Assembly (NCBI RefSeq): GCF_024802625.1
Contig: NZ_CP103371.1
Span: 3,348,001 to 3,412,000 of the forward strand
Direction of reading: 5' to 3'
From: Massilia sp. H6
Lineage (GTDB): Bacteria > Pseudomonadota > Gammaproteobacteria > Burkholderiales > Burkholderiaceae_D
Length of the DNA stretch: 64,000 nucleotides
Below, one piece after another: positions 6,893 to 34,466 of this stretch. The position numbers and the translations under genes are program-made. The notes beneath the pieces were generated by a model. The model was not told where the DNA came from. It saw only the letters and a program-made list of their open reading frames with translations, and searched no databases. Positions within the stretch are counted from its first letter, which is position 1. Every line of letters begins with the position of its first letter.

Positions 6893-6897
6893 TCGCC

Positions 6898-8313: not shown

Positions 8314-8384
8314 GACGAAGGGTGAGTTGAAGCGCGGAATTGGGGCGCCACGCTTGTGCCGATCTGGCTACACTGGAGGCACCG

Positions 8385-8561: not shown

Positions 8562-8592
8562 GCTTGCCCCTCCCCATGGGCCGCAAGCTGCC

Positions 8593-9828: not shown

Positions 9829-10409
9829 CGCAGCTTCTCTACCAGTGCGCGCAGGGCCTGGCCGCGGTGCGAGCGGGCGTTTTTCTCGCTCGGTTCGAGT
9901 TCGGCGGTGGTCTTGCCAAGCGCCGGGATCAGGAAGTGCGGGTCGTAGCCAAAGCCGTTGGCGCCGCGCGGGGTATCGATGATCTCGCCGTGCCAGCAGC
10001 CGTCGGCAATGACGGGCTGCGGGTCGTCGGCATGGCGCACATAGACCAGCACGCAGTAGTAATAGGCCGACTTGTCGCCATGCGGGGCCAGCTCGGCGAT
10101 CAGCTTGGCATTGTTGCGCGCATCCGATTTCGGTTCACCCGCGAAGCGCGCCGAATACACGCCCGGCGCGCCGCCCAGCGCATTGACGCAGACCCCGGAG
10201 TCGTCGGCCAGCGCCGGCAGGCCGGTCAGGCGCGCCGCGTGGCGCGCCTTGGCCAACGCGTTTTCAACAAAAGTGTGAAACGGCTCTTCGGCTTCGGGCA
10301 CGTCGAATTCGCCCTGCGGATGCAGTGCGAAACCGATGGGTGCGAGCAGCTGCGCGAATTCTTGCAGTTTGCCGGCGTTGTTCGAGGCGAGGATCAGGCG
10401 TTGGGTCAT
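9825..10409 (-). CDS. rdgB: dITP/XTP pyrophosphatase (Ham1/RdgB)
   Basis: House-cleaning enzyme that hydrolyses non-canonical purine triphosphates (dITP, XTP) to monophosphates, preventing their incorporation into nucleic acid. At 194 residues it matches the family length. The N-terminal substrate-binding motif is LASNNAGKLQEFAQLL, and the catalytic region ALADDSGVCVNALGG then GVYSARFAG is intact. The HSHRG-like end motif appears as RSHRGQALR. It is upstream of and overlapping hemW, and downstream of rph, an order common in Burkholderiales. Confidence 0.95.
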   Translation of the reverse strand: MTQRLILASNNAGKLQEFAQLLAPIGFALHPQGEFDVPEAEEPFHTFVENALAKARHAARLTGLPALADDSGVCVNALGGAPGVYSARFAGEPKSDARNNAKLIAELAPHGDKSAYYYCVLVYVRHADDPQPVIADGCWHGEIIDTPRGANGFGYDPHFLIPALGKTTAELEPSEKNARSHRGQALRALVEKLR

Positions 10410-10480
10410 GGAAGCTCTGGTGAGGTTTGCTGCGCAGGGGCGGTATTTTAGCGCGTTGGCTTACTGCTTGCGTGCTTAGC

Positions 10481-11215
10481 TTAGCCAACCAGCCCAAGGG
10501 ACCGCTTTTGCAACATGATCAGCTCGGCAATGCCCAGCTGGCCCAGATCGAGCAGCCGGTTCATCCCTGCCCGGTCGAACGCCGCGCCTTCGGCCGTGCC
10601 CTGCACCTCGATGAAATGCCCCTGCTCGTTCATCACCACGTTCATGTCGGTATCGCAGTCCGAATCTTCGATGTAATCCAGGTCGAGCACCGGCGTGCCC
10701 CGGTACACGCCGACCGAGATCGCTGCCACGAAGTGCCTGAGCGGCACCGCCGGGAGCAGGCCCCGCCCCACCAGCACGCTGAACGCATCATGGGCCGCCA
10801 CCATGGCGCCGGTAATCGAGGCGGTACGGGTGCCGCCGTCGGCCTGGATTACGTCGCAGTCGAGGTGCAGGGTGCGCTCGCCGAATGCCTGCAGGTCGAA
10901 GGCGGCGCGCAGCGACCGGCCGATCAGGCGCTGGATCTCTTGCGTGCGGCCGCTTTGCTTGCCGCGCGCGGCTTCGCGGTCCATGCGGGTGTGGGTCGAG
11001 CGCGGCAGCATGCCGTATTCGGCCGTCAGCCAGCCCTGGGCCTTGCCCTTCAGGAAACCCGGCACCTTTTCTTCGATGCTGGCGGTGCAGATCACCTTGG
11101 TATCGCCGCATTCGATCAGCACCGAACCTTCGGCGTGGCGGGTGTACTGGCGGGTCAGGCGGATGCTGCGCAACTGGTCGACGCTACGGCCGCTCGGGCG
11201 TACCTGGAATGTCAT
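10481..11215 (-). CDS. rph: Ribonuclease PH
   Basis: Phosphorolytic 3'-to-5' exoribonuclease that trims tRNA precursors. From the ATG at 11213-11215 the protein is 244 residues starting [17 protein letters not shown], the family N-terminus; the longer open frame to 11596 runs into the phosphatase gene and is discarded. Phosphate-binding and catalytic segments [12 protein letters not shown]-like ([16 protein letters not shown]), [12 protein letters not shown] and [18 protein letters not shown] are present. The C-terminus is full length, unlike the frameshifted rph of E. coli K-12. Confidence 0.96.
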
Positions 11216-11229
11216 GGACTGGCCTTGCT

Positions 11230-12168
11230 TTATTTGAGTAATTGGGAGGATTTTTCGATCGCCTGGCGGATCTCGGCAATCGCTTTCTCGATTTCGTCTT
11301 CGTCGAAGGCATCGACGAAAATGTCGGCGCCCGCGATGCGCGGCTGGCCCGCCGCGATCGTCGAGCTCACTTCGTTTTCGGGCAGCATCCGGGTCGAGAT
11401 CACACCGGGCGCGCCGCTGCCGGCGCTCTCGGCACCCTGCCAGGTAATCGCCAGCGCGGTGGTGTTGTCGCCGCGCGCCCCGCCGATGGCGGCCGACATC
11501 GCCACCATGTCGGGCACCGCCTGCACGATGCTCGAGCTCGATAACCGGTGCACGATTTCGGCTTCCGGCAGCACCGACCACAGGCCGTCCGAGCACAGCA
11601 GCAAGGTGTCGCCCGTCTCCAGGCTGGCCTGCGACGAAATGTCGATCTTCGGGGCCTGGCCGGCGCCCAGGCAGTTATAAAGCTTGTTGCGGTCTGGATG
11701 GGTGTTGCGGTCGGACTCGCGCGCTTTGCCCTTGCCGATCAGGTATTCGAGGTGCGAGTGGTCGCGCGTGCGCGCCAGCACCTGGTTACGGCGCACCCAG
11801 TACAGGCGCGAATCGCCGCAGTGCGCCCACACCGCGCAGTTGTGCTGCACCAGGCAAGCCACGATGGTGGTGCGCGGGGTTTCGGGCATCTTGTTGGCTT
11901 CGGCATAGGCCAGGATGTCCCAGTGCGCCTGCTGCAGCGCGTCGTCGAGAAAGCGTTCGGGCTTCTTGATATAGGGCCGGGCCTGCATGCGGAACATCAT
12001 CGACAGCGTTTGCAGCGCGATGGTCGCGGCAACCTCGCCTGCCAGGTGCCCGCCCATGCCGTCGGCCAGCACCAGCAGCAGCGCGTCGCGCGTGAAGCTG
12101 TAGCCCATGCGGTCCTGGTTGACCTTGCGCCCGCCGATGTGCGATTGCTGGTAGACGGAAAATTGCAT
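11230..12168 (-). CDS. PP2C-family serine/threonine protein phosphatase
   Basis: Metal-dependent cytosolic phosphatase of 312 residues. The PPM motifs are visible: VNQDR (D19), [17 protein letters not shown] (metal-binding D36), [21 protein letters not shown] and [15 protein letters not shown]. About 60 residues follow the catalytic core and are unassigned. It starts 18 bases after the kinase stop, so kinase and phosphatase form an operon and probably act on the same substrates, the phosphatase reversing the kinase. No membrane segment is seen. Confidence 0.92.
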
Positions 12169-12186
12169 GCGTGTTCCTTGGTTGCG

Positions 12187-13179
12187 CTAACTGCGGACTT
12201 TGCGGCCGATGCCGCCCAGGCGTTCGGCCAGCCCGCGCCAGCCGGAGGCCGGCGGCACGTCGTGTGGTTGCGCCCCCTGTTCGTGCGGCGTCAGCTGCGG
12301 GGCCGCCTGCAGCACCTTCTGCATCGCGAACACGCTCTGCAGCCGCGCAAGCGGATCGAGCGCCATGCACGACCCTACCATGTCCACCAGTTCGGGCGAA
12401 TAGCTGCCCGCCAGGCTCGCCAGCTGCGCAGCCGTGCGGTCGTCGTGCTTGCGCGCCTCGACCGGCTGCGGCATGGAGCGCGTCATGCAGGCGTACATGG
12501 CGGCGCCAATGCTGTAGATATCGGTCCAGGGTCCGAGCGCGGCGAGCTTGCTGTACAGCTCCGGCGCGGCAAAGCCCGGCGTGTACATCGGTGCGAGCAT
12601 CGGCGCATCGATGTTGATGGTCTGGCGCGCCGCGCCGAAATCGAGCAGCAGCGGCGAGCCGTCGCCACGCAGGTAGATGTTGGCCGGTTTCAGGTCCAGA
12701 TGCAGCAGCTTGTTGGCGTGTACTTCGCGCACCCCGGCGCACACGCCATTGAACAGCTGGCGAATCGAGGCCTCGCCCATGCGGCTGCCCTTGGCATGCA
12801 GGCGCGCGATATGGTCTTGCAGCGTGTGGCCGGATTCGTAGGCCATCACCATGTACACCGTCTCGTTAGCACGAAAGAAATTTACGACCCGCACCACGTT
12901 CGGATGAACGATGCGCGCCAGGGCCCGCCCTTCTTCGAAAAAGCACTTCAGGCCAATGCGAAATATCGCCAGGTTGGACCTCGATACGGTGGGCGCCAGC
13001 TCACCGGGAGCACGCAAGGCCAGCTGGCTGGGCAGGTATTCCTTGATGGCAACTGCATTGCCTTCAGCATCATATGCCAAATAAACAATACTGAACCCGC
13101 CAGACGCAATTTTCTTTACAATGCGATATCCGGCAATTTCCAGGCCATCGGGCAGTGGTGCGTTGTTCTGTGCGGCCAT
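12187..13179 (-). CDS. Hanks-type serine/threonine protein kinase, non-RD, cytosolic
   Basis: A 330-residue kinase with the eukaryotic-like catalytic core: glycine loop IASGGFSIVYLAYD (residues 24-37), ATP lysine K46 in AIKEYLP, catalytic loop HLDLKPANIYL (H160, D162, K164), DFG at 180-182 and APE within GFAAPELYSK. The catalytic loop reads HLD rather than HRD, so it is a non-RD kinase, a class not usually activated by activation-loop phosphorylation. No membrane helix or PASTA domain is seen. It is divergent from yicC, with a 77-base gap carrying both promoters, and co-directional with the PP2C gene. Targets are unknown. Confidence 0.93.
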   Translation of the reverse strand: MAAQNNAPLPDGLEIAGYRIVKKIASGGFSIVYLAYDAEGNAVAIKEYLPSQLALRAPGELAPTVSRSNLAIFRIGLKCFFEEGRALARIVHPNVVRVVNFFRANETVYMVMAYESGHTLQDHIARLHAKGSRMGEASIRQLFNGVCAGVREVHANKLLHLDLKPANIYLRGDGSPLLLDFGAARQTINIDAPMLAPMYTPGFAAPELYSKLAALGPWTDIYSIGAAMYACMTRSMPQPVEARKHDDRTAAQLASLAGSYSPELVDMVGSCMALDPLARLQSVFAMQKVLQAAPQLTPHEQGAQPHDVPPASGWRGLAERLGGIGRKVRS

Positions 13180-13256
13180 CCAGGAGATCCTTGCTTAACA
13201 GCACGATTGTGTGGGATAAATGTTGGCTTTGTAAAGAATAAAAACCGGGGACTTCA

Positions 13257-14159
13257 TTGAGCATTTCAAGCATGACAGGTTATGCGGTAGCCACCTCCGA
13301 AGGCGCTGCCGGCACCCTCACCATCGAGATCAAGAGCGTCAATTCACGCTTCCTGGATCTGCAGTTCCGCATCAACGACGATTTGCGCGCGCTCGAGCCT
13401 GACCTGCGTGCTGCGATCATGGCCGCCATCACCCGCGGCAAGGTCGAGGTGCGCCTGTCGTTCGGCCGCAAGACCAGCGGCGGCTCGCAGGCGCTCAATG
13501 CCGAACTGCTGGCCGAGCTCGCCCGCTTGCAAACCGAGATCGCGCAGCACTTCGCCGCCGCCCCGCCGATGACCGTGGCCGAGTTGCTGCGCTGGCCCGG
13601 CGTGATCGAGGAATCGACCGTGGGCCAGGAATCGCTCCAGCTCGACGTTGCCTCGCTCACGGCCGTTACCGTCGCCGCCTTCGTCGACAGCCGCCGGCGC
13701 GAAGGCGCGGCGCTGGAAGCGATGCTGCAGTCGCGCATCGAGGCCATGGAAGTCATCGTCAAGCGCATCACCCCGCTGATTCCGCAAGTCATTGCGCAGT
13801 TCCAGCAAAAAGCCATCGAGCGCATGCAGGACGCACTGGGCCTGGCTGGCCATGGCAACCCCGCCACCCTCACGCGCCAGGAAGTGCTCGAGCGCATCCG
13901 CCAGGAAGTGACACTGTACGGCATCCGCATCGACGTGTCCGAAGAGCTCTCGCGCCTGTCGGCCCACCTGAACGAGACGCGCCACATCCTCAAGAAGGGC
14001 GGACAGGTCGGCAAGCGCCTGGACTTCATGATGCAGGAACTCAATCGCGAGGCCAATACGCTGGGCGCCAAGGCCTCGGTCAAGGAACTGGCCGATGCCT
14101 CGATGGAGCTCAAACTGCTGATCGAGCAGATGCGCGAGCAGGTGCAGAACCTCGAATAA
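13257..14159 (+). CDS. yicC: YicC-family protein (RNA-associated endoribonuclease family)
   Basis: YicC proteins are bacterial RNases or RNA-decay factors acting on small RNAs and mRNAs. The 300-residue protein has the conserved N-terminus SMTGYA and the C-terminal DUF1732-like end [22 protein letters not shown]. The TTG at 13257 is preferred as start because GGGGA at 13247-13251 is placed six bases before it and it yields the MxxSMTGYA form usual in the family; the in-frame ATG 13272 would be 20 bases from that site and would cut the motif. It is the first gene of yicC-gmk-rpoZ-spoT. Confidence 0.93.
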
Positions 14160-14166
14160 ATTATTA

Positions 14167-14265
14167 GCAATTGTTGTCGGCCCGCAACAAATTGCAGCCG
14201 ATGATGGAACGCGTGAGCGGGAATTTGCCGCCCCCTGGGGTGGCAAGTTTCTCGCTCACGCGTTC
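14167..14265 (+). promoter_or_regulatory. Two tandem stem-loops in the yicC-gmk gap
   Basis: The 148-base gap holds two inverted repeats. The first pairs 14167-14176 with 14185-14195 with one bulged base. The second pairs 14207-14234 with 14237-14265 as a roughly 28-bp stem with one bulge and G-U pairs. Neither is followed by a U tract, so a simple intrinsic terminator is unlikely. The second stem ends 42 bases before the gmk start. It may be a processing site, a 3'-end stabiliser of yicC mRNA or a gmk leader element; the role is inferred. Confidence 0.5.
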
Positions 14266-14307
14266 GACGTTATGATGACCACCACGGATTACACAAGGAC
14301 TACCACC

Positions 14308-14952
14308 ATGATCACTCCCGCCCTTTCCGGCAGCCTGTTCGTCGTCGCCGCGCCCAGCGGCGCTGGCAAGTCGACCCTGGTCAACGCCCTGCTGAAGCTG
14401 GAACCGGGCATCAAGCTGTCGATCTCGACCACTACCCGGGCGCCGCGCCCTGGCGAGCAGGATGGCCGCGAATACCATTTCACGTCGGCCGAGGATTTCG
14501 TCGCGCGCGCCGACCGCGGCGAGTTTCTGGAATGGGCTGAGGTACACGGCAATTACTACGGCACCAGCCGTGTAACCGTGGAACAGGAAATGAAGCTCGG
14601 GACCGATATTTTGCTGGAGATCGACTGGCAGGGCGCGCGCCAGGTACGCAAGCAGTTCCCGGATGCGGCCGGCATTTTCATCTTGCCACCATCGATCGAG
14701 GCGCTGGAAGAGCGCCTGCACAAGCGCGGCACCGACGAGCCCCACATCATTACCCGCCGCCTGCTGGCCGCCGGAGGGGAGATCGCTCACGCGCCGGACT
14801 TCGAATATGCTATCATCAACGAAGAGTTCAATGTCGCCCTCTCGCAGCTGCAAGCGATTGTCATCGCGACCCGTTGCCGCTTCGCCCAACAGGCCGCGCG
14901 CAACACCGACTTGTTCGCCCAGCTTGGAATCCACGCGCAACAACCAGATTAG
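14308..14952 (+). CDS. gmk: Guanylate kinase
   Basis: Phosphorylates GMP to GDP with ATP, essential for GTP and ppGpp precursor supply. From ATG 14308 the protein is 214 residues, near the usual 207, beginning [18 protein letters not shown]. The P-loop is APSGAGKST; the GMP-binding segments [19 protein letters not shown] and [13 protein letters not shown] are intact. AAGGA at 14295-14299 lies eight bases before this ATG, so the upstream in-frame ATG 14272 is not favoured. It is followed by rpoZ and spoT, a widely conserved order in which GTP synthesis, RNA polymerase omega and the alarmone enzyme are linked. Confidence 0.96.
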
Positions 14953-15014
14953 TATCCCGCAAGTGCGCGGCACCGCAAGGTTGGCCGCAATATCGTCTAT
15001 CTAGGAGTAACCCC

Positions 15015-15218
15015 ATGGCCCGTATCACCATCGAAGATTGCCTCAAAAACATCCCGAACCGCTTCCAGCTGACCCTGGCCGCCACCTACCGCGCACGCCA
15101 GCTGCTGCAGGGCCATACTCCGAAAGTCGAAGCCAAGGACAAGCCGACCGTCGTCGCGCTGCGCGAGATCGCCGCGGGCAAGGTCGGCATCGAGATGCTG
15201 AAAAAAGTGCCGATGTAA
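15015..15218 (+). CDS. rpoZ: DNA-directed RNA polymerase omega subunit
   Basis: Small RNA polymerase subunit that helps assemble beta-prime and forms part of a ppGpp binding site. The 67-residue product starts [19 protein letters not shown] and contains [13 protein letters not shown], both diagnostic. TAGGAG at 15002-15007 is a well-placed ribosome site. It lies 62 bases after gmk and 74 before spoT. Confidence 0.97.
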
Positions 15219-15292
15219 TACCCGATGCGGCTTGAATTCGGGAATCGTTGAATCTGTTATTCTGTGCCTATACTGGCTGATCGATATAACGC

Positions 15293-17849: not shown

Positions 17850-20072
17850 ATGCATGAAGCAATGATGTTACCGCTTAACGAACAGATCCAGCAGGTCACC
17901 GATGAGGCGATGCAGTGTGCGCTGCAAGAAGCCATGGCAGGCCGCATCGAACAGGCAGGAAAGCTGTATCGGGCCATCCTCGAACTCCAACCGGGCCATG
18001 CGGAAGCGCATTTCGGGCTGGCGATGCTTGAGCAATCCGCTGGAAACATGACTGCCGCGATTCCCCATTTTGCTGCAGCGCTTCAGGGGGATCCGGAACG
18101 AGAAAATTACTGGCTGACTTATCTCGACGCCCTCATGTTCGCGCGCCAGTTCAGCACCGCACACGAGCTACTCGGCCTTGGGCGAAGCCATGGCCTGCAA
18201 GGTCACGCGGTCGATGCGATCGAGCAGCGGCTGGTGGCTTCCGGCGCACCTACCGTGCAGGACGTCGATGAGGGTACAGCTCTATTCGCGCAGGGCCGGT
18301 ATGAGGCGGCAGGCGAGGCCGCGCGTCTGCTTACCGAGCGGTTTCCACAACATGGTTCTGGCTGGAAATTGCTCGGCGCGGTCCATTACCTGAAGGGCGA
18401 GATTGTGCAAGCAATGGCCGCGGTGCAAAAGGCAGTCGCTTACGCACCCGACGACGCTGAAACACTTAGCAACCTGGGACTGCTACTGCAGGAAACCGGC
18501 CAGGCCGCCGAAGCCGAACGCGTCCTGCGCCGGTCGATCACACTGCAGCCGCACAGCAGCCATGCGCACAATCACTTGGCGTTGGCGCTACTTGCATCCG
18601 GACGTCTGAAACAAGCACAGGCTAGCGCAAGTACCGCAGTAGCGCTCGATCCCACGCATGCCGAATTTCACAACACACTAGCCATGGCCCTCGACCGTCA
18701 GGGCCGCTCGATTGAGGCGGTCGATGCTTACCGTCGGGCGCTGGAGTTGGCGCCAGAGCGTGCCGACCTGCACAGTAACATGCTGTTATGCATGAGCCGG
18801 ATGGAGAACATGACGCCTTCCGCACTATTCGCCGAACACCTTTCATTCGGTGAGCGTCTGGAACAGCGCATCGGTACGCCACGCGTATGGCCGAATACGC
18901 TGGATCCGAGACGGTGCTTGCGCATCGGCTTTGTCTCGGGCGACCTCCGAAACCATGCGCTCGCCAGTTTTGTCGAACCGATTTTCGAGCGCCTTGCCGG
19001 TCGCCAGGGTCTTGCTTTGCATGCTTACTACACTTTCCCCGTGCACGATGCCGTCACCGAGCGCCTGCGCGGCTACATGGCCCAATGGCGCGACGTTGCC
19101 GCGCTAAGGGACGCGGAGCTGGACGAGTTAATCTGCGCCGATGGTATCGATATTTTGATCGACCTTGCTGGCCACACCGCCTACAATCGATTGCCCCTGT
19201 TCGCACGCAAGCCGGCGCCGCTACAAGCAACCTGGATTGGCTACCCTGGCACCACCGGCCTGCGCGCGGTGGACTATTACCTGACCGACCGCTTCATTCT
19301 GCCGCCGGGACAATACGATCATTTATTTACGGAAAAGCTGGTACACCTCCCGGTGTCGGCGCCATTTGCGCCCGTTGCCGATGGCCCTGAAATTGTAAGC
19401 TTGCCCGCATTGGCAAATGGCTACGTGACCTTCGGCAGTTTTAATCGCGTTGACAAGATTCGCCGCAACGTCGTGGCTCTATGGTGCGTGCTGCTGCGCG
19501 CGCTGCCAGAAGCGCGGATGCTCGTGGCTGGACTGCCGGAAGGGGGCAATTATGAGCAGCTGCAAGCCTGGTTCGCTGAGGAGCGTATCGATGGTGCACG
19601 CGTGCGCTTCCAGGCCCGTACTGGCATTTACGACTATCTCGCGCTGCATAACCAGGTCGATATCAACCTCGATACCTTTCCGTACTCGGGAGGCACTACG
19701 ACCTTGCACGCGATGTGGATGGGCGTGCCGACGCTGACGCTGATAGGCGACACTGCAGCAGGACGGCAGACGGCGTGTATCCTAGAACATAACGGCCTGG
19801 CGCAGTTTGCCAGCCATGACGCCGACGATTTCGTTCGCAAAGGAATAGCCGCCAGCACCGACCTGACCGCATTGTCGGCGTTGAGAGCCACCATGCGTGC
19901 GCATTTTCCGCGGTCTACGTCAGATGACATCACGCGGATCGCCGATGGTGTCGAGAATGCACTGCGAATGATGTGGCGGGGTTGGTGCGCCGCCCTGCCC
20001 GCCGTCAGCTTTGAAGCACCGCAGGTACTCGCGCAAGAGGCATCCATGCGCGGCTTTATTTCTCGCCGCTGA
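17850..20072 (+). CDS. TPR-domain O-GlcNAc-transferase-like glycosyltransferase (GT41, SPINDLY type)
   Basis: Predicted cytosolic transferase that adds a sugar to Ser/Thr of a protein. The 740-residue protein has N-terminal tetratricopeptide repeats over about residues 5-330 (KLYRAILELQPGHAEAHFGL, AVAYAPDDAETLSNLGLLLQ, ALDPTHAEFHNTLAMALD) and a GT41 catalytic half (CLRIGFVSGDLRNHALASF, WIGYPGTTGLRAVDYYLTDR, VDINLDTFPYSGGTTTLHAM, MGVPTLTLIGD). Similar TPR-GT41 proteins glycosylate flagellins and adhesins. The start among ATG 17850, 17862 and 17865 is uncertain, because AGGGGA at 17831 is too far from each. Codon use is less GC-rich than in spoT. Its last 40 bases overlap a DegT remnant in another frame, so its C-terminus probably arose at a recombination joint. 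Confidence 0.9.
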   Translation: MHEAMMLPLNEQIQQVTDEAMQCALQEAMAGRIEQAGKLYRAILELQPGHAEAHFGLAMLEQSAGNMTAAIPHFAAALQGDPERENYWLTYLDALMFARQFSTAHELLGLGRSHGLQGHAVDAIEQRLVASGAPTVQDVDEGTALFAQGRYEAAGEAARLLTERFPQHGSGWKLLGAVHYLKGEIVQAMAAVQKAVAYAPDDAETLSNLGLLLQETGQAAEAERVLRRSITLQPHSSHAHNHLALALLASGRLKQAQASASTAVALDPTHAEFHNTLAMALDRQGRSIEAVDAYRRALELAPERADLHSNMLLCMSRMENMTPSALFAEHLSFGERLEQRIGTPRVWPNTLDPRRCLRIGFVSGDLRNHALASFVEPIFERLAGRQGLALHAYYTFPVHDAVTERLRGYMAQWRDVAALRDAELDELICADGIDILIDLAGHTAYNRLPLFARKPAPLQATWIGYPGTTGLRAVDYYLTDRFILPPGQYDHLFTEKLVHLPVSAPFAPVADGPEIVSLPALANGYVTFGSFNRVDKIRRNVVALWCVLLRALPEARMLVAGLPEGGNYEQLQAWFAEERIDGARVRFQARTGIYDYLALHNQVDINLDTFPYSGGTTTLHAMWMGVPTLTLIGDTAAGRQTACILEHNGLAQFASHDADDFVRKGIAASTDLTALSALRATMRAHFPRSTSDDITRIADGVENALRMMWRGWCAALPAVSFEAPQVLAQEASMRGFISRR

Positions 20073-20239
20073 ACACTGACTTTCCGATGTACGCGGGCGT
20101 CGATTCGGCAGCGCCGGAGCGGCTGCCGGTTAGCAACCGTGTGGCGCGCCAGGTAATCTGCCTGCCGATCTATTCAACGCTTGACCCGGCGCAGGTGGCT
20201 CGCATGGCGGACGTGATCCGCACAAGCGCAATGATCTAA
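20033..20239 (+). pseudogene. 3' remnant of a DegT/DnrJ/EryC1 sugar aminotransferase
   Basis: In the frame one base off that of the glycosyltransferase, translation from about 20033 to TAA 20237-20239 gives GIHARLYFSPLNTDFPMY, then LPVSNRVARQVICLPIY, then LDPAQVARMADVIR. These are the consecutive C-terminal motifs of PLP-dependent nucleotide-sugar aminotransferases (VioA/WecE/ArnB family). No start and no catalytic lysine remain; upstream the frame is closed by a TGA at 20012-20014. The fragment is out of frame with, and overlaps, the end of the glycosyltransferase. It reads as a scar left when an aminotransferase gene was lost or replaced by recombination. Confidence 0.8.
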
Positions 20240-20259
20240 CCCGAACTGATAGGGGCACT

Positions 20260-21444
20260 ATGACATTCCAAACATTTCACCACGCAACGCCAGACGATTT
20301 CAGTGGCCTCTACAAGTATATAGACACCGCTTTCGAGAATCCGAGCGATTTCGATGAGGTCTATTTTCTGGGTGACCACACGGATATCTTCGCGCTACGC
20401 GCTTTTCCGATTGCCCGATCGCTGCCGAATTTCGCTGGACTGGCGGTATTTTCGGTCTCACCCGAAAAGCGCATCCGCATTGCCCAGCAGTTGCCGGTAC
20501 GAGCCAATTGGCGCTTCCTCGACATTGCCGAGCTAATCGCACGAGCTTCCTCGAAACGCATACTGGTGATCGACTTCAACAACAACCTGACGGGAAAGAA
20601 TATCGCCACGCAGCTCACGGGGCATGGCATCGTGGTCCACGACTGCCTGTTCGCTCTGCACCAGCTGGACCTGGAACATACATACCAGCGCGTACGCGAG
20701 GAGCGCGAGCACGTGGCGGCCAACCTGGAAGGCTTTATCGCCCTGGCCGAACGCTTCGGTGACGATTGGTCGCGCACCACCCTACTGGCGCGCCTGCGGG
20801 CCTTGCTCACGCTCGACCGGCGCCCGCTGATCGAGGCCAGCTTCCCGCTCAACGACTTCATGAACAACTTCGCGAGCCAAGCCGGCCTGGTGGTGGGCGA
20901 GGACGACATCTTCGTAGATGCCGGCGCTGCACACGGCGACACGGTTTCAAGTTTCTTCCATCTCGCGCGGGGAAAGTACCGGGCGATTCATGCGTTCGAG
21001 CCGGATTCGTCGAACTTCACGGCGTTAAAGATGCTATGCAGTTATTTGCCGAATGCGCATCCGTATTTCGCCGGCCTCGGGCGAGAGGAAGCTGAAATCG
21101 TCTTCTATGAAAACCCGGCGAACCGTTTCGGCAGCAATTTCTCTGGTGGTGGCCATGAAACCAAGATGAAAATCATGACAATTGATGACACTGTCGGCGA
21201 AGCCACTCTGGTTAAAATCGACGTTGAAGGTTGGGAGGCGCAGGTTCTCGAGGGCAGTGCCCGGACAATTGCGCGCTGCAAGCCGGACATGACCATCTCG
21301 GCCTATCACTATGCAAAAGATATCCCCGAGCTGCTGGCGACGGTGGACGGGATCGCGCACTATAAAAACCTAGCCCTGCGCCACTATTCGTCCAGCCTGT
21401 ACGACACCCAACTGGTATTCTCGGACCGCCAGGATTTCCGCTGA
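20260..21444 (+). CDS. FkbM-family SAM-dependent methyltransferase
   Basis: A 394-residue protein with a C-terminal FkbM methyltransferase domain. SAM-binding motif I is DIFVDAGAAHGDTVSSF, then AIHAFEPDSSNFTALK, and later TLVKIDVEGWEAQVLEGS, all typical of FkbM enzymes that O-methylate sugars and polyketides. About 210 residues precede it (LGDHTDIFALRAFPIARSL, then RILVIDFNNNLTGKNIA). This N-terminal part is not assigned and may be a sugar-recognition domain. AGGGG lies seven bases before ATG 20260. The gene follows the glycosyltransferase on the same strand, so O-methylation of the transferred glycan is the likely role, an inference from context. Confidence 0.85.
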   Translation: MTFQTFHHATPDDFSGLYKYIDTAFENPSDFDEVYFLGDHTDIFALRAFPIARSLPNFAGLAVFSVSPEKRIRIAQQLPVRANWRFLDIAELIARASSKRILVIDFNNNLTGKNIATQLTGHGIVVHDCLFALHQLDLEHTYQRVREEREHVAANLEGFIALAERFGDDWSRTTLLARLRALLTLDRRPLIEASFPLNDFMNNFASQAGLVVGEDDIFVDAGAAHGDTVSSFFHLARGKYRAIHAFEPDSSNFTALKMLCSYLPNAHPYFAGLGREEAEIVFYENPANRFGSNFSGGGHETKMKIMTIDDTVGEATLVKIDVEGWEAQVLEGSARTIARCKPDMTISAYHYAKDIPELLATVDGIAHYKNLALRHYSSSLYDTQLVFSDRQDFR

Positions 21445-21453
21445 GATGTCGGA

Positions 21454-22077
21454 TCAGCCGCCCACGATCACCATCGGGTGCGCATGTGAGCTGTGAATGA
21501 AGGTCTTGGCGGCCACGTCCGCCTCGATTCTTCCAGGCCGGTCGATTACGCACTGCGCGCCGATCGCGACACCGTGGCCGATGCTCACGCCCAGTCCGAG
21601 AGTGGCCTTATTGCCGATCCTGGCGCCATGTCCGACCGTCACGCCGGCATCGATGAAGGCCGACTGGCCAATCTCGACGCTGCCGCCGACGACGGCGCCG
21701 GGCCCGATTACCACGTTGAAGCCGATTCGGCAGCCAGGCTGAATGATGGCGCCCGCGCCAATCCACGTGTTGTGCAGAATTTTTACGTTAGCGCCCACGA
21801 TGGCGCCGCGCTCGACCAGCGGCGGCATCGCAACACCGTGGCCGCGTACGATGCTCATCAGCTCGAGACGGTAAAAATTCAGGAATCGTGCATCGGCGGC
21901 GACGAAGGCCGTCGCCCCGTCCCGGTCGAGTGCGTTGAGCATTGCCTGCAACGCTGCCGGATCGGACGCTGCAGGCAGTTCTACCGGACGCAAGTCGAGG
22001 TCAGGCGCGAGTTCACGCCACGCCGCCATCGCCCGTTGCAGGTCGAGGCCACTGCCTATCACATGCTTACAAGGCAA
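21454..22077 (-). CDS. Hexapeptide-repeat acyltransferase (NeuD/PglD-like)
   Basis: A 207-residue left-handed beta-helix protein. Hexad-like repeats run from about residue 95 (VERGAIVGANVKILHNTWIG, AGAIIQPGCRIGFNVVIG, then SAFIDAGVTVGHGARIGNKA) to a short capping tail. The family transfers acetyl or longer acyl groups from CoA or ACP to sugar amines or hydroxyls. The N-terminal part lacks the GxGG nucleotide-fold motif seen in the other acyltransferase of this operon. The start overlaps the end of the Rieske gene by 11 bases, so it is the last gene of a translationally coupled operon. It converges on the FkbM gene with a nine-base gap. Confidence 0.82.
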   Translation of the reverse strand: MPCKHVIGSGLDLQRAMAAWRELAPDLDLRPVELPAASDPAALQAMLNALDRDGATAFVAADARFLNFYRLELMSIVRGHGVAMPPLVERGAIVGANVKILHNTWIGAGAIIQPGCRIGFNVVIGPGAVVGGSVEIGQSAFIDAGVTVGHGARIGNKATLGLGVSIGHGVAIGAQCVIDRPGRIEADVAAKTFIHSSHAHPMVIVGG

Positions 22078-23215
22078 AGCTCCCCTCCATCAGGTTCAGG
22101 TACCAGTGCTCGATGCCTGCGTTGACAAACTCGTAGTCGCCAAGGTGTGCCGGCCTGGCGCCTTCGTATAGAGTTTGTTGAATCTGCTCCATCACATCGA
22201 TATCCTCGCGCAGCACCTTATCCGCACCCATCATGTGCGCGTGCAACACTGCAGCCGACGCGGAATACGGGCGTTTCTTCTTCGCCGTCACAAAATACAC
22301 CATGAACTCGGTGCGTCCCGGTCCAACCGGGACATGGTGTTCGACGATAAAGGAGTGGCCGCCGTCGGCCGAGGCAATATGCAGGTTCGGGAAAACCAGC
22401 CAGTTGTAATACCAATCCTGGTCGCGGTAACGCTCGACATTGCTATGCCAACGCTCGTTGGGCGCGGCTTGCATCGGCGCGTCGCGCCCGCCGCCGCTGA
22501 AGCTGCGCAGCAGGGCCAGCGCCCGCTCACGGTCTCCGATACCCTGTTCGCGCTGGCGCCGTAGCGCCTCCACGCCGCACTCGTCGATGCTGGCTTCAAA
22601 CCTGACCTCCTGGTACAGCGTGCGCGCATGCAGGTAACGCGGGTGATGTTCGTCGCGCAGGTTTTCATACGCGAGCTTCCAGTTGAAGCGGCCGTCGTAG
22701 GTCGTCATGATGACTTCGCCATCAAACGCGGCTGAGGACGCCGCCAGCGAGGCTAGCATGGCTGCGCCGAACTGGCGCTTGATCGGCAGCGGGTCTGCCG
22801 ACAGGTTCACGAAAACCAGGTTGCCCACCACCTCCAGCGCAAAGCGGCGCAGGCGGATGCAGGCCCGCTCTTCCGGCGCAAACCGGAACAGCGCGTCTTC
22901 ATGAGGAATTCTGGTGCCACCCTCACTGTCGAAACTCCAGCCGTGATAGCTGCAAAATAATGGACGCACGCCATGTGGCTGGACCTGGATCGGATTTTGC
23001 CGGTGCGGGCATATGTTCTCAAAGGCGCGCAGTTCGCCATGAAAGTTTTGCACCACAACCGGAATGCCGAACAAGGTGCGCTTGATGAAAGCATTATTCT
23101 TGTCGAGCATAACTTTCAGGCCGATGAATTGCCACAGCGGCTTGAATAGGAGGTCGCGCTCACGCCCGAACCAGGCTTCGTCGATATACGCTTGCGCAGG
23201 CATATTGGACTGCAT
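22067..23215 (-). CDS. Rieske non-heme iron oxygenase, ring-hydroxylating-type alpha subunit
   Basis: A 382-residue oxygenase. The Rieske [2Fe-2S] ligands are C69-P-H71 and C88-x2-H91 (ENICPHRQNP, LFCSYHGWSF). The catalytic iron motif N-x2-D-x2-H-x4-H is N185, D188, H191 and H196 in ENLRDEHHPRYLHA. The C-terminal domain is full length, so a complete active enzyme is expected. It needs a reductase or ferredoxin, and none is encoded nearby. Its ATG overlaps the stop of the preceding acyltransferase (TAATG). An oxygenase in an acyl-sugar cluster is unusual; oxidation of the sugar or acyl chain is a guess, comparable to CMP-sialic acid hydroxylase, which also uses a Rieske centre. Confidence 0.88.
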   Translation of the reverse strand: MQSNMPAQAYIDEAWFGRERDLLFKPLWQFIGLKVMLDKNNAFIKRTLFGIPVVVQNFHGELRAFENICPHRQNPIQVQPHGVRPLFCSYHGWSFDSEGGTRIPHEDALFRFAPEERACIRLRRFALEVVGNLVFVNLSADPLPIKRQFGAAMLASLAASSAAFDGEVIMTTYDGRFNWKLAYENLRDEHHPRYLHARTLYQEVRFEASIDECGVEALRRQREQGIGDRERALALLRSFSGGGRDAPMQAAPNERWHSNVERYRDQDWYYNWLVFPNLHIASADGGHSFIVEHHVPVGPGRTEFMVYFVTAKKKRPYSASAAVLHAHMMGADKVLREDIDVMEQIQQTLYEGARPAHLGDYEFVNAGIEHWYLNLMEGSFAL

Positions 23216-23874
23216 TATTTAAAGCGAAATACTTTGGCTGGGTTGCCGATCATGGTGACACCGGGAGGCACGTCGGCCATCACCACCGCGCCGGCGCCGA
23301 TAACGGCACCGTCGCCGACAGCCACGCCTGGCAGGATCGTCGCGTGCGGATGAATGACGACGTCGCTCCCTATACGGGCGCGCCCGCCCACGAAGGCGAA
23401 ACTGCCGATGGTTGCGTACGAACCGATTTCCACTTCGTAGCCAATCACGGCGGTAGACATGATGAAGACGAAGTCACCCAGGTGCGTATCGACGCCAACC
23501 CTTACTTCTGGCTCGAATAAGCAGCCCACGCCCATGGTGAGGCCGATCGCCTTGTGCAGTCCCGTAAGCAGGCTCATGAAAGCGGCCCCCTGCGCGAGCA
23601 GCGGGGCGGCGAAGCGGCGGCGCTGGGCAGGGTCGCCCAGCGCACACAGGAACTCCTCATACGGGCGGCAGCGGTAGGTCAGCGGGTCGCCGAGCAACGG
23701 CAAAGGTGCACCTGCTGCAAGCCCGGCACGGTTGTCAAGGAACCCCACAACCCGCCAGTCCACACCATTGGCCACATCGTGCTGCATCATATTGTAGACA
23801 GTACGGCCAAAGCCGCCGGCACTGATAATCAGCGCATTCTTCATTCCGGGCACTTCTTCCATCTTCAGGTCCAT
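23215..23874 (-). CDS. Sugar acyltransferase, NeuD/PglD family
   Basis: A 219-residue two-domain protein. The N-terminal fold has the glycine motif ALIISAGGFGRTVYNMM typical of PglD/NeuD, and the C-terminal left-handed beta-helix runs through VGVDTHLGDFVFIMSTAVIG and IGSDVVIHPHATILPGVAVG to GNPAKVF. PglD N-acetylates a UDP-4-amino sugar, and NeuD O-acetylates sialic acid. Here a longer acyl donor is possible because an ACP and KAS III lie in the same operon. The chosen ATG 23874 has GGAGG six bases upstream and overlaps the preceding SDR by ten bases; internal ATG 23844 (MKNALIISAGG) is the alternative. Confidence 0.87.
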   Translation of the reverse strand: MDLKMEEVPGMKNALIISAGGFGRTVYNMMQHDVANGVDWRVVGFLDNRAGLAAGAPLPLLGDPLTYRCRPYEEFLCALGDPAQRRRFAAPLLAQGAAFMSLLTGLHKAIGLTMGVGCLFEPEVRVGVDTHLGDFVFIMSTAVIGYEVEIGSYATIGSFAFVGGRARIGSDVVIHPHATILPGVAVGDGAVIGAGAVVMADVPPGVTMIGNPAKVFRFK

Positions 23875-24608
23875 GGAATTCCTCCGTCCAGATGCAGCTG
23901 GGTGCCGGTCACCTTGCGGCTGACATCGGCCAGCAAATAGATGGCGGCGTAGGCCACATCTTCCGGCCGGCCCAGCCCGAGCGGGTACATCTTCGCTTTA
24001 TCTTCGAGCCAGGCCCGGTCCTGGTTCACCAGCGGCGTATCTACCAGCCCCGGCGCGAGCGCATTGGCGCGCATCGCGCGTGGTGCAATCTCCAGGGCCA
24101 AGCATCGGATCATGCCCTCGAGGGCCGCCTTGGAAGCCGAGTAGGCTCCGACGCCTACCGTGCCGGTATGGGCGGCGATCGACGAAAGGAACACGATCGA
24201 TGCCCCGTTGCGCAGCGCTTTCTTGTTCAGGAGCCCTGTAGTCAGCATCAGCGGGGCCATCAAGTTGCTGTCCAAGACTTTCTGTACAAAAGAAACACGC
24301 AGCAGGCGCACCGGAGTAACGCCGGGGATGCCCGCCGCATGCACTACGCCGTCGAGTTCGCCGGCTTGTTCCACCAGCCAGGCTAGCTGGGTCGGGTTAG
24401 TCAGGTCCGCTTCCACAGAGAAGTGTCCCTCTCCCTCGAGCATGGCCAGGGTCGCTTTCAGGCGCTCCTGGTCACGTCCGTTAAGAATCAGGCGCGCGCC
24501 GGCACGCGCGCATTCGACGGCGACCGCGCGGCCGATTCCGCTTGAAGCGCCGGTCACCAGCACGGTTTTTCCCCGCAGGTGGAAAGGATGGTGAAAGCGC
24601 TCGCTCAT
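23865..24608 (-). CDS. Short-chain dehydrogenase/reductase (FabG-like)
   Basis: A 247-residue NAD(P)-dependent oxidoreductase. The cofactor motif is TGASSGIGRAVAVE (TGxxxGxG), the structural motif is HAAG, and the catalytic S-Y-K set is in FLSSIAAHTG and YSASKAALEGM. The RxANALAPGLVDT and VTGTQLHLDGG segments are typical of 3-ketoacyl-ACP reductases. Beside KAS III and ACP it would reduce a 3-ketoacyl-ACP to a 3-hydroxyacyl-ACP, although a sugar substrate cannot be excluded. Its ATG overlaps the stop of the second SDR by four bases. Confidence 0.88.
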   Translation of the reverse strand: MSERFHHPFHLRGKTVLVTGASSGIGRAVAVECARAGARLILNGRDQERLKATLAMLEGEGHFSVEADLTNPTQLAWLVEQAGELDGVVHAAGIPGVTPVRLLRVSFVQKVLDSNLMAPLMLTTGLLNKKALRNGASIVFLSSIAAHTGTVGVGAYSASKAALEGMIRCLALEIAPRAMRANALAPGLVDTPLVNQDRAWLEDKAKMYPLGLGRPEDVAYAAIYLLADVSRKVTGTQLHLDGGIPWT

Positions 24609-25351
24609 CGCACGTGCAAGCTAAGGCCGGAGTCGATGACCAGCGAAGTACGCGACACCCAGCGACTGGCAGGCGCGAGCAGCCAAGCGATGCTTGCCGC
24701 GACGTCGCCAGGTTCGATGATGCCTAGCGGCGCCAGGCCGGCCTTTTCATTGGGACTCATGACGCCTTGCAGACCGTCCAGCATCGGGGTGGCGACATAG
24801 CCCGGCGAGACACAGTTGGCGCGCACGCCGTTCTTAGCCTGCTCGACCGCGATGGTGCGCACGGTTGCCGTGAGTGCGGCCTTAGCGCCGGAATAGATTC
24901 CGGTGGCGTTCGGTGCCACGTGTTCGGCGACCGCCGTCACGTAGACCAGGGAAGCCCCCTGTGCGAGCTTGCGCCTGGCCAGCAGGGCCTGGGTCAGCAG
25001 CACCGGGGCGTCGTAGTTCACAGCGAAGATCGTGTCCAGGTGACGCTGCGAGACCAAGCGAATAGGTGCCAGCGCGGCTGCGCCGGCACTAAATACACAT
25101 CCGTCGAGTGCAACCACGGAATCCACCAGGGACTGGCGAGCCGCGGGATCGGTAAGATCACCTGACACGGCCTGATGACCCTCGCCCGTCAGCCCGGCAA
25201 CGACCTGTTCAAGGCGGGCGGTATTGCGTCCACAGGCGACAATGCGCGCACCCATGTCCGCACACAGGCGCGCAGTAGCCTCGCCGATGCCCGACGACGC
25301 CCCCGTCACGAGGATCGACCGTCCTTCGAGGCTAAACGGCGAGGCGCTCAC
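24605..25351 (-). CDS. Short-chain dehydrogenase/reductase (FabG-like), second copy
   Basis: A 248-residue SDR. The cofactor motif is VTGASSGIGEATARL, and the catalytic segment is YVTAVAEHVAPNATGIYSGAK, with Tyr and Lys in YSGAK. The site usually held by the SDR catalytic serine reads LVYVTAVAEHV, with Thr-Ala rather than a clear Ser-Ser, so activity should not be assumed identical to FabG. The C-terminus ends SRTSLVIDSGLSL. It resembles the adjacent SDR in layout and probably arose by duplication. Four-base overlaps on both sides place it firmly in the operon. Confidence 0.85.
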   Translation of the reverse strand: MSASPFSLEGRSILVTGASSGIGEATARLCADMGARIVACGRNTARLEQVVAGLTGEGHQAVSGDLTDPAARQSLVDSVVALDGCVFSAGAAALAPIRLVSQRHLDTIFAVNYDAPVLLTQALLARRKLAQGASLVYVTAVAEHVAPNATGIYSGAKAALTATVRTIAVEQAKNGVRANCVSPGYVATPMLDGLQGVMSPNEKAGLAPLGIIEPGDVAASIAWLLAPASRWVSRTSLVIDSGLSLHVR

Positions 25352-26385
25352 GACTCGATCAATTCAGGAAATACTGCATCTTCGATGTCCACGATGCAAC
25401 CGCCCCAAGACAGGCCGATGCCAAAGCCCGACATCAATACCTTTTTCTTCCCGCCCAGGAGTGCCTCGCGGATGCGCACCGTCATCGTGACTGGAATCGA
25501 GGCGCCGCTGGTGTTGCCGAAATCGTGCAAGGTACAAGGCACCTTATCGGGCTCCAGGCCCAGCTTCTTGCGGATGGTCTCGTTGATCATCTTGTTTGCC
25601 TGATGAAAGATGAAATAGTCGACGTCACCGATAGGGCATTGCGCGAACTCGAGCAAGCTGCGCACCGCCGACGGCACCCGCTGGGTCGAGAAGCTCAATA
25701 CGGCCGGGCCGTCAAGCATCAGCGCCGTCGGGCTGCGCCAGATACCGTCGTCATCTTTTACCGGCACCGCATGCTGCAGCCCAAAGGGCTCACGGTGACC
25801 ACCCGCCGGCAGCATGATGGCCTGGTAACCGCTGCCATCGCTATTGAGGTCGAAATACATCGGCGGCGCGTCCGGATCGTATTCAAGCGCGGTGGCGGTA
25901 CCGGCGTCCGAAAACAGCGGCTCGATCACCGAAGCAGCCTTGTCGCCGACCAGTAGCAGAGCTTTTCCAATGCCGCCCGCTGCCATCATTGAGCCCAGCA
26001 CGTGCAGGCCGAAAGCATAGGCAGAGCAGCCCAGGTTAATGTCGAAAGCGATGGTAGTTGACTTGAGCCCAAGCCGGTCTTGCAGGATGATGGCCGTGGC
26101 AGGAATTAGATAGTCGGGTGATTGGGTGACGACGATCAGCGCGTCGATCTCGTCACGATCCCAATTCAGATCCGCGAGCAGGCGCTCGGCCGCGTCAAAG
26201 GCAAGGTCCGAAAAGTTTTGCCATTCGGAGCAAATGCGGCGCGTTTCAATGCCAATGTTGCGAACAATCCGTTCACGAGCCGAACGGATCTGAGGCGGAC
26301 AATCCTTGAGGTTCGAGAGTATGCGCCGCGGTACACAGGTAGCCATGCCGGCATAACGTACATTGCGAATAATCGCCTGGGCCAT
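25348..26385 (-). CDS. 3-oxoacyl-ACP synthase III family (KAS III/FabH-like)
   Basis: A 345-residue thiolase-fold condensing enzyme. The catalytic triad is visible: C120 in DINLGCSAYAFG, H261 in YFIFHQANK and N291 in DFGNTSGASIPV. Such enzymes condense an acyl-CoA primer with malonyl-ACP. Beside a dedicated ACP and two SDRs it would supply a short 3-hydroxyacyl group, for example 3-hydroxybutyryl, for sugar decoration; a related gene set accompanies flagellin glycosylation in Pseudomonas. It starts three bases downstream of the ACP stop. It is separate from housekeeping fabH, which normally lies in the fab/plsX cluster. Confidence 0.9.
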   Translation of the reverse strand: MAQAIIRNVRYAGMATCVPRRILSNLKDCPPQIRSARERIVRNIGIETRRICSEWQNFSDLAFDAAERLLADLNWDRDEIDALIVVTQSPDYLIPATAIILQDRLGLKSTTIAFDINLGCSAYAFGLHVLGSMMAAGGIGKALLLVGDKAASVIEPLFSDAGTATALEYDPDAPPMYFDLNSDGSGYQAIMLPAGGHREPFGLQHAVPVKDDDGIWRSPTALMLDGPAVLSFSTQRVPSAVRSLLEFAQCPIGDVDYFIFHQANKMINETIRKKLGLEPDKVPCTLHDFGNTSGASIPVTMTVRIREALLGGKKKVLMSGFGIGLSWGGCIVDIEDAVFPELIES

Positions 26386-26388
26386 GGG

Positions 26389-26631
26389 TCAACCAATCAA
26401 TTTGTACACGTCACTGACCAGTTGACATCCCGCTAGGTCCTTACCGGCGATGGCCTTGTCATACTCCATATCAAACATGATGATCACGCCAAGCGCCGCC
26501 AGGGAATCCCACTCAGCAAGCGTCTTTAGGTTGGTGTCGCCGGTGAGTTGAACCTCGTCTTGGAAATCGACGGCGTTTTTAAATTTTTCGACAAATTGCT
26601 CGAGGGTGTCCATTGCTGCCTTCATGATCAA
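26389..26631 (-). CDS. Acyl carrier protein of the island operon
   Basis: An 80-residue acidic protein, first gene of the minus-strand operon. The phosphopantetheine site is S43 in LAEWDSLAALGVI, which matches the DSL motif of ACPs though without the flanking housekeeping sequence. It probably carries the acyl chain made by the adjacent KAS III and SDRs. The start could be ATG 26631, 26625 or 26613 (residues 1, 3 or 7). It is too divergent to be AcpP, so it is a dedicated carrier. Confidence 0.85.
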   Translation of the reverse strand: MIMKAAMDTLEQFVEKFKNAVDFQDEVQLTGDTNLKTLAEWDSLAALGVIIMFDMEYDKAIAGKDLAGCQLVSDVYKLIG

Positions 26632-33002: not shown

Positions 33003-34466
33003 ATGGCATCCGTAATCAATACCAACGTCGCATCCCTGAACTCGCAGCGTAACCTGTCGACCTCGAGCGCCTCCCTGAACACCTCGATCCAGCGCCTGTC
33101 GTCGGGCCTGCGCATCAACAGCGCCAAGGACGACGCTGCCGGTCTGGCCATTTCGGACCGCATGAGCTCGCAGATCCGCGGCATGAACCAGGCAACCCGC
33201 AATGCGAACGACGGCGTGTCGATGGCCCAGACGGCCGAAGGCGCCCTGTCGAGCTCGGGCGACATCCTGCAACGTGTCCGCGAACTGGCAGTCCAGTCGT
33301 CGAACTCGTCGAACTCGGCCAGCGACCGCAAAGCCCTGCAGACCGAAGTCACCCAGCTGACCTCGGAACTGAACCGTATCGCCAACACCACTGAATTCAA
33401 CGGCCAAAAGCTGCTGGACGGCTCGATGGGCACCGCGAACTTCCAGGTTGGCGCCAATGCTGGCCAGCTGATTTCGATGACCGGCGCAAACTTCAGCACC
33501 TCGACCTACGGCAACAACCGCCTCGACGCCAGCGCAGTCCAGGCCGGCACCGCGGCAACCAATGGGGTCACTACCGGCGCCATGGCGATTAATGGTTCGG
33601 AAGGTTCGAAAACCATCACCGTGGTCGAGGGCGCCTCCGCCAAAACGACAGCAGCAGCAATCAACAATGCCAGCGGCGAAACCGGCGTCACCGCAACCGC
33701 CAAGACCGAATCCCTGGTGAAGGGCACTGCAAACAAGTCGTTCTCATTCGAGCTGACTTCGGATAACAGCACTGCAGTCACGGTCTCGTTCTCGGTTGGC
33801 AACACCGATGCGAACGGCTATGCCGCTGCCATCAGCGCCTTCAACGCCCAATCTGCCAAGACTGGCGTTACCGCATCGTACGATGCGGATAACAACGGCC
33901 TGAAGCTGACCAACGCCGACGGCAACGACATCAAGCTGAAGAACACCTCGGCCGATGCCGGTTCAGTTGCAACCATGGGAACCTATGACTCAGCCGGCGC
34001 AGCACTCGCTACTCCAGCTGCAACGAACGGCGCAAACGGTGCCACCGCCGTCGGCCGTCTGGTGCTGGACTCGGAGAAGAGCTTCTCGGTGGTTGACGCC
34101 AGCGGCTTCAACCTCGATGGCGGCAGCTCCACCGGTTCGTCGGCCCTGAAGTCGGTCGCCAACCTCGACGTCAGCACCTTCGACGGCGCCCAGTTGGCCA
34201 TCAAGGTTGCCGATGCTGCCCTGGGCGCGGTCAACGGCCAGCGTGCCCAGTACGGCGCACTGCAGTCGCGCTTCGAATCGGCAATTTCGAACCTGGCGTC
34301 GACCACCGAGAACCTGTCGGCATCGCGCAGCCGCATCGTCGACACCGACTTCGCTTCGGAAACCGCAAAGCTGACCCGCGGCCAGATCCTGCAGCAGGCT
34401 GGTACCTCGATGCTGGCCCAGGCCAACTCGCTGCCGAACGGTGTCCTGTCGCTGCTGCGTGGATAA
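33003..34466 (+). CDS. fliC: Flagellin
   Basis: The filament subunit. The 487-residue protein has conserved N-terminal helices ([19 protein letters not shown] through about residue 140) and a C-terminal D0 domain ending [17 protein letters not shown]. The centre (about residues 180-390) is an Ala/Thr/Ser/Gly-rich variable region, including [18 protein letters not shown], with many potential O-glycosylation sites. GGAGAAA seven bases before the ATG is a good ribosome site. It is preceded by a sigma-28 promoter and followed by a strong terminator, so it can be transcribed alone at high level. Confidence 0.97.

Follow-up and report, generated by a model that had tools for sequence, protein, structure and literature searches.

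The window analysed here is a 64,000-nt stretch of the Massilia sp. H6 genome (assembly GCF_024802625.1, contig NZ_CP103371.1, positions 3,348,001–3,412,000, forward strand). Within it, a glycosyltransferase of the GT41/SPINDLY type with TPR repeats (hereafter OGT), a remnant of a DegT aminotransferase and an FkbM-family methyltransferase face a compact minus-strand operon of seven genes: an acyl carrier protein (ACP), a β-ketoacyl-ACP synthase III (KAS III), two short-chain dehydrogenases/reductases (SDR1 and SDR2), a NeuD/VioB-like acyltransferase (hereafter NeuD), a Rieske oxygenase and a second hexapeptide protein, Hex2 (Table 1). An initial annotation of this DNA had named these genes and read them as a flagellin glycan island for an acylated dideoxy-amino sugar; a check of open reading frames against Pfam and NCBIfam found every one of them where it had been placed and in the family it had been given. 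The intergenic gaps of the operon range from +3 to −11 bp, with the Hex2 and Rieske genes overlapping by 11 bp, and only 9 bp separate the end of the operon from the FkbM gene, which converges on it. The start of fliC, at 33003, is 6.4 kb from the ACP gene, and the OGT, a soluble TPR–GT41 enzyme that is the sole transferase of the island, lies 12.9 kb from fliC.

Table 1. Genes of the candidate glycan island and the flagellin gene of the window (positions are those of the window)
Feature	Position	Strand	Evidence
GT41/SPINDLY-type TPR glycosyltransferase (OGT), truncated OGT–DegT fusion, proposed to glycosylate flagellin	17850..20072	+	Pfam PF13844 2.5e-36; PDB SPINDLY 9e-90
DegT scar, C-terminal aminotransferase remnant, frame differs from OGT	20030..20238	+	Alignment to fused OGT–DegT relatives
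FkbM-family methyltransferase, possible sugar O-methyltransferase	20260..21444	+	PF05050 4e-13; TIGR01444 7e-18
Hex2, LpxD-like left-handed beta-helix hexapeptide protein	21454..22077	-	PF00132 5e-19; best PDB hits LpxD
Rieske non-haem iron oxygenase, terminal oxygenase type, metal ligands complete	22067..23215	-	PF00848, PF00355
NeuD/VioB-like hexapeptide acyltransferase, catalytic His -> Tyr	23215..23874	-	TIGR03570 1e-41; VioB 7txp 1e-16
SDR2, 3-oxoacyl-ACP-reductase-like, Ser/Tyr/Lys intact	23865..24608	-	Pfam, NCBIfam, residue alignment
SDR1, Ala at usual catalytic Ser position	24605..25351	-	Pfam, NCBIfam, residue alignment
KAS III, VioS-like, Cys/His/Asn intact	25348..26385	-	PF08541 6e-27; TIGR00747 1e-52, below its cut-off
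Dedicated ACP, DSL motif	26389..26631	-	Motif, position, annotation of Xanthomonas counterpart
fliC, primary flagellin, proposed substrate	33003..34466	+	PF00669, PF00700

In Xanthomonas albilineans, an orthologous operon is embedded among the flagellar genes, between fliF and fleQ–rpoN–fliD–fliC (all five flagellar genes were checked with Pfam). The Rieske protein of this flagellar copy had a match at E ≤ 1e-40 in 18 of the 20 Xanthomonas genomes searched, and X. albilineans together with 15 of the other 17 matching genomes (G826 and G831 were left out) forms the set of 16 Xanthomonas loci used throughout. At all 16, DegT, ACP, KAS III, SDR, SDR, NeuD, Rieske and Hex2 stand in this order next to fleQ, Hex2 being detected behind Rieske with the window protein as the query; an FkbM-like hit then follows in 15 loci (not in L146), as does a glycosyltransferase hit in 15 (not in L145).

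The association extends to the wider Burkholderiales. Among 399 genomes of the order, KAS III was found at E ≤ 1e-100 in seven (the window genome, G025, G086, G132, G197, G176 and G193), and all seven carriers have a Rieske-family gene near it. The Rieske proteins of G176 and G193 are only 24% identical, yet have both the Rieske and the catalytic domain by Pfam; Hex2 was not found in the stretches from these two genomes. At the G193 locus (L157, G193:C52, 2282–13819), fliD, two flagellins and a 978-aa GT41 OGT are accompanied, in divergent orientation, by ACP–KAS III–SDR–FkbM–Rieske. Sugar-nucleotide-type genes come after the distant Rieske gene of this island.

Closer to the window, the search of the genus (order Burkholderiales) covered 62 genomes, including that of the window. 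Some Rieske match at E ≤ 0.001 was present in all 62, far weaker outside the close orthologues (69–80% identity), which occur in seven of the 61 other genomes. KAS III parallels this distribution, with matches at E ≤ 1e-95 in eight of the 62 genomes, the window's included. These seven genomes and one Massilia metagenome-assembled genome supply eight other Massilia loci, and the seven operon genes occur in identical order in all eight, so the arrangement is not a matter of chance. The OGT is convergent to the operon in all eight (at L035 it is cut by the contig end). In six of these relatives the OGT frame (1,105–1,128 aa) continues into a DegT aminotransferase, which is a separate gene in the other two. 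Genome G056 contains a second, divergent island (L056, G056:C179) with its own KAS III (68%) and Rieske gene (33%).

Two pieces of the window align to parts of the relatives' fused OGT–DegT that flank a gap: 19905–20021 matches residues ~685–727, at the OGT end, and 20030–20227, read in a different frame, corresponds to the C-terminal stretch (~1040 to the end), so that ~315 codons are missing through an internal deletion with a change of frame. By this alignment, the DegT scar is the end of a formerly fused OGT–DegT gene, and the aminotransferase that had been suspected of being lost has indeed gone from the island by this route. The window genome has one other close DegT, which is full-length and shares 68% identity with the DegT of the G002 island. 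It lies between flhA and a flagellin gene, and a second OGT stands on the far side of that flagellin, 0.2 kb from it. This locus (L050, G000:C1:1401500–1421499, 5388–15291) is a second flagellar export cluster that includes the DegT, the flagellin and the second OGT. The DegT found there is a possible supplier in trans of the lost aminotransferase, which refines the earlier suspicion. Its best model is DesI (314.6 bits, under the 650-bit equivalog cut-off) and its best PDB hit is again DesI (2po3). The product of DesI is dTDP-4-amino-4,6-dideoxyglucose. The gene rmlB, for dTDP-glucose 4,6-dehydratase, was also found in the window genome, above its curated cut-off.

Catalytic residues were aligned across 30 loci (nine Massilia, five further Burkholderiales and 16 Xanthomonas), in which KAS III and ACP were each found 29 times. 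The CxH..CxxH ligands of the Rieske centre, the 2-His-1-Asp iron site and the bridging Asp are kept in 30 of 30, the Cys-His-Asn set of KAS III in 29 of 29 and the ACP Ser in 29 of 29. For the window NeuD, VioB is the best PDB hit, and the TIGR03570 score of 142.8 bits is below the cut-off of 160.8. The window ACP had no Pfam match at E ≤ 0.01. An AlphaFold model of the Rieske protein, built with six sequences, was unusable (mean pLDDT 35.5).

The Xanthomonas loci fall into two sets (11 versus five) that diverge unevenly along the operon. Mean identity between the sets is 83–88% for DegT, ACP and KAS III, 43–47% for the SDRs and NeuD, 32% for Rieske and 24% for Hex2, the SDR2 figure being lowered by L145 and L146, in which the SDR2 match falls on the SDR1 gene. 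Given that identity from SDR to Hex2 is far below that of DegT–ACP–KAS III, the back of the operon has been replaced as a block. Two alleles of the SDR–SDR–NeuD–Rieske–Hex2 block are seen behind a conserved DegT–ACP–KAS III front (L092, L132–L146). A separate Rieske–Hex2 pair lies near purT in all six Xanthomonas loci examined for it (L036 10001–11768, L147–L151); when L036, from X. albilineans, was tested as a ninth locus alongside those of Massilia, only Rieske and Hex2 were present. The proteins of the purT-side pair are 53–56% (Rieske) and 44–48% (Hex2) identical to those of the window. The purT-side Rieske is closer to the window's than are the flagellar-island copies (~32–46%). From the separate pair, the 11-bp overlap and the exchange of the block, we infer that Rieske and Hex2 act together and that the SDR-to-Hex2 block sets the final form of the acyl sugar.

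The OGT family itself also occurs at flagellin sites in Massilia. Only two OGT-type enzymes were found in the window genome at E ≤ 1e-10, and both are at flagellin loci. The gene order haem-oxygenase-like, greB, kinase, regulator, GGDEF, fliC is common in the genus, mostly with spoT in front (the haem-oxygenase-like label is weak in the window, at 16.4 bits against a cut-off of 23), and spoT adjoins the haem-oxygenase-like gene at the spoT–fliC site of three island genomes (L066–L068). A lone island-family OGT stands at this site in four of 20 other Massilia genomes, and also in G002; among the 20 sites, spoT was not or only partly seen in L109 and L110. In a tree of OGTs, those of the islands and those of the fliC sites form one family, the window OGT having no settled place. 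Flagellin (PF00669) was sought in 14 genomes, a search outside which G176 and G193 lay, and was found in 13, the one without it being G341. All 13 scanned operon genomes (in G113 a partial operon on a 3.9-kb contig) have flagellin, which is weak support because flagellin is common. The window genome has two more flagellin genes, at L090 (G000:C1:2483000–2502999) and L091 (1369500–1389499), which are 90% and 70% identical, respectively, to the flagellin of L050.

Taken together, these data point to a flagellin glycan island of the acylated-viosamine kind, in which an activated N-acylated 4-amino-4,6-dideoxyhexose would be put on flagellin; we place the probability of this reading at roughly 0.8. 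It rests on synteny with the Xanthomonas flagellar cluster (16 of 16 loci) and with the flagellins of G193, and less on the distance to fliC in the window. The DesI-like DegT and the match of NeuD to VioB likewise support the sugar class named in the initial annotation. In the proposed pathway, RmlB, encoded elsewhere in the genome, would supply dTDP-4-keto-6-deoxyglucose, which a DesI/VioA-like DegT would aminate at C4 to give dTDP-viosamine; this DegT is fused to or beside the OGT in relatives, and in the window genome, from which the fused part has been deleted, the job would probably be done by the full-length DegT beside another flagellin. ACP, KAS III and an SDR would make a short 3-hydroxyacyl-ACP, probably 3-hydroxybutyryl, for transfer to the 4-amino group by the VioB/NeuD-like protein, despite its His-to-Tyr change in the Massilia clade. 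The acylated sugar would then be oxygenated and further tailored by Rieske and Hex2, acting as partners whose genes overlap; the FkbM enzyme may O-methylate it before the OGT transfers it to Ser/Thr of flagellin in the cytoplasm.

Several observations weigh against this reading. No flagellin lies within the fetched stretch of any of the eight other Massilia loci (only 10 kb for L035), and in G039 and G025 fliC is ~0.70 and ~0.52 Mb from the operon on the same contig. The 6.4 kb to fliC given for the window is therefore correct as a distance, but its closeness is not conserved, and proximity to fliC, once the main argument, was dropped; the search for the set near fliC came up empty at those eight loci, and at G193 a similar set lies beside two flagellins. 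The window OGT is not homologous to the GT2 transferase of Xanthomonas. At the NeuD position aligned with the VioB His, the catalytic base in PglD-type enzymes, Tyr is found in nine of nine Massilia loci and His in 21 of 21 others (compared were the window, L026–L032, L035, L051–L054, L056, L092 and L132–L146), and no second NeuD-type protein was found in the window genome at E ≤ 1e-6. In SDR1, Ala takes the place of the usual Ser in seven of nine Massilia and 13 of 16 Xanthomonas loci, and the protein may serve SDR2 as a partner instead of being another reductase; in the five further Burkholderiales loci SDR1 and SDR2 are not soundly separable, the best match in L051–L054 being the same gene. 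Given the lost His and the SDR1 Ala, a plain copy of the VioB/VioR route does not fit, and the Massilia NeuD must be supposed either to catalyse transfer by means of the Tyr or with help from the substrate, or to have changed its role. Furthermore, the neighbouring DegT is of another type (27–34% identity) in G086, G132, G197, G176 and G193, so the sugar may differ there. In G341, which lacks flagellin, Rieske genes (30–33% identity) and a Hex2-like gene belong to a sugar-nucleotide cluster that gave no ACP or KAS III hits. Finally, loss of the DegT part may be a sign of island decay in the window genome.

Decay would imply that deletion of the aminotransferase has ended production of the amino sugar and left the other genes as a remnant. 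The loss of so much of the fused DegT, with its change of frame, is what such a course would leave, but the other genes have uninterrupted full-length frames, the catalytic residues of Rieske, KAS III, ACP and SDR2 are preserved, and the genome has a complete DegT of the right type at another flagellin locus; we regard decay as unlikely. Alternatively, the operon could make an acylated sugar for another Massilia acceptor, such as O-antigen, capsule, a surface adhesin or a small glycolipid, its flagellar position in Xanthomonas being a lineage-specific capture. The stretches without flagellin around the eight Massilia operons would suit this, as would the Rieske–Hex2 pair among sugar-nucleotide genes in flagellin-free G341 and the further sugar-type genes after the operon in G086 and G132 (judged from translations only). 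Against it stand a soluble TPR–GT41 enzyme as the only transferase of the window's island, the location of both OGTs of the window genome at flagellin loci, OGTs of this family at those of four of 20 other Massilia genomes and a GT41 OGT beside the G193 flagellins, with flagellin in 13 of 13 scanned operon genomes adding a little; another acceptor is quite unlikely.

The Rieske enzyme could also be an unrelated catabolic oxygenase that landed in the operon. Ring-hydroxylating dioxygenases are its best PDB matches, carnitine monooxygenase ranks lower, and no reductase gene for it was found within the operon. Set against this are its presence in the operon at eight of eight other Massilia and 16 of 16 Xanthomonas loci, the occurrence of a Rieske gene near KAS III in all seven carriers among the 399 Burkholderiales genomes and the conservation of its ligands at 30 of 30 loci, which make a chance arrival very improbable indeed.

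Within the flagellin reading, we tentatively suggest, at somewhat short of even odds, that a step requiring oxygen belongs, as a fixed but overlooked element, to many flagellin glycan pathways of a widespread class: the Rieske enzyme (with Hex2 in Massilia and Xanthomonas) would oxygenate the acylated nucleotide sugar, the back block would be exchanged as a cassette that sets the glycan type of a strain, and the VioB-like acyltransferase of Massilia would work without the catalytic His. Such a step would matter because flagellin glycans influence both motility and the way hosts recognize the bacteria, and the best studied example of the class, the Pseudomonas syringae pathway, has no oxygenase. 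With Rieske near KAS III in every carrier examined, the prediction is a shift in glycan mass, for example of one oxygen, on removal of the gene. The swap of the SDR-to-Hex2 block behind a constant DegT–ACP–KAS III front in Xanthomonas suggests how strains change their flagellar sugar, and Massilia is an environmental genus for which such a flagellin glycan can be predicted.

Regulatory and mobility scans of the window added little. No sigma-28-like promoter was found before the operon, and none before fliC either (the best site was at 35080); with fliC itself lacking a site and ~4 matches in shuffled sequence at the cut used, the scan for flagellar promoters is uninformative. A sigma-54 scan was run without a control. 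Neither the sigma-70 scan (six sites versus 2.9 expected, two of the six before the OGT gene) nor the terminator scan (13 versus 7.8 expected) was decisive. Among plasmid records, 70 had short partial matches and none reached 80% coverage.

Searches of the literature found no paper joining Rieske with viosamine, and none on the subject, judged by title, for Rieske with flagellin and glycosylation. A wider search for a role of Rieske enzymes in flagellin glycan islands, Massilia and Oxalobacteraceae included, also found none among the matches listed, judged by title and opening of the abstract, in a body of text outside which most subscription journals fall. The term Rieske is absent from the main text of three papers on flagellin glycosylation (PMC7874193, PMC4875605 and PMC3958885).

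The viosamine island of P. syringae (vioA, vioM, vioT, vioS, vioB, vioR and acp), characterized by mass spectrometry of mutants, is described in the excerpted text of its report as containing an aminotransferase, a methyltransferase, a KAS III, the VioB acyltransferase, a 3-oxoacyl-ACP reductase and an ACP, all with counterparts here (PMC3927599). As there described, its seven genes include no Rieske oxygenase, no second SDR and no Hex2 (the likeness is by description, not by sequence), and the transferase VioT, of 1,173 aa, caps a rhamnose chain (PMC3927599). The Massilia NeuD shares the fold family of the VioB-type N-acyltransferase of the viosamine pathway, but not its catalytic His. With the SPINDLY/OGT family (GT41), the window OGT shares both TPR and GT41 domains, and SPINDLY is its best PDB hit (9e-90); the fusion to an aminotransferase in six of eight Massilia relatives sets it apart.

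The nearest counterpart is the flagellar island of Xanthomonas. A table of flagellar genes excerpted from a paper on X. fuscans lists a matching gene set as XCV2000–XCV2013, with XCV2007 labelled 'Rieske 2Fe-2S family protein' (PMC3826837). The gene list of the Xanthomonas flagellar cluster, Rieske included, is thus already in print in that table, and a strong claim of novelty fails, including the view in the initial annotation that the whole composition had not been described as one system. An excerpt from a review places the flagellin-glycosylation genes gigX1-10 of X. oryzae under the control of RpoN2/FleQ and refers to Yu et al. 2018 for a ten-gene Xanthomonas island reported to determine flagellin glycosylation (PMC8657755). 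As far as that excerpt goes, number and place agree with the flagellar-cluster genes compared here, which may therefore be the GigX genes.

Both islands share the order DegT, ACP, KAS III, SDR, SDR, acetyltransferase, Rieske and hexapeptide protein, mostly followed by a methyltransferase, and their KAS III proteins are ~70% identical; the window departs from this order only in DegT, deleted there but present in its relatives, either as a fused part or as a gene of its own. The Xanthomonas island differs in its separate DegT, its GT2-type transferase (1,174 aa in X. albilineans) and its flagellar location, and the Massilia operon in its GT41 OGT (fused to DegT in six of eight relatives), its varied sites and the NeuD Tyr for His. 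The Massilia island is, as judged from these comparisons, a variant of the Xanthomonas flagellar island with a GT41 transferase, in which the fused aminotransferase has been lost and the acyltransferase altered. Its distinct features are an OGT fused to, and then stripped of, its aminotransferase, together with a Rieske gene near KAS III in seven of seven carriers and a putative acyltransferase with Tyr at the VioB His position.

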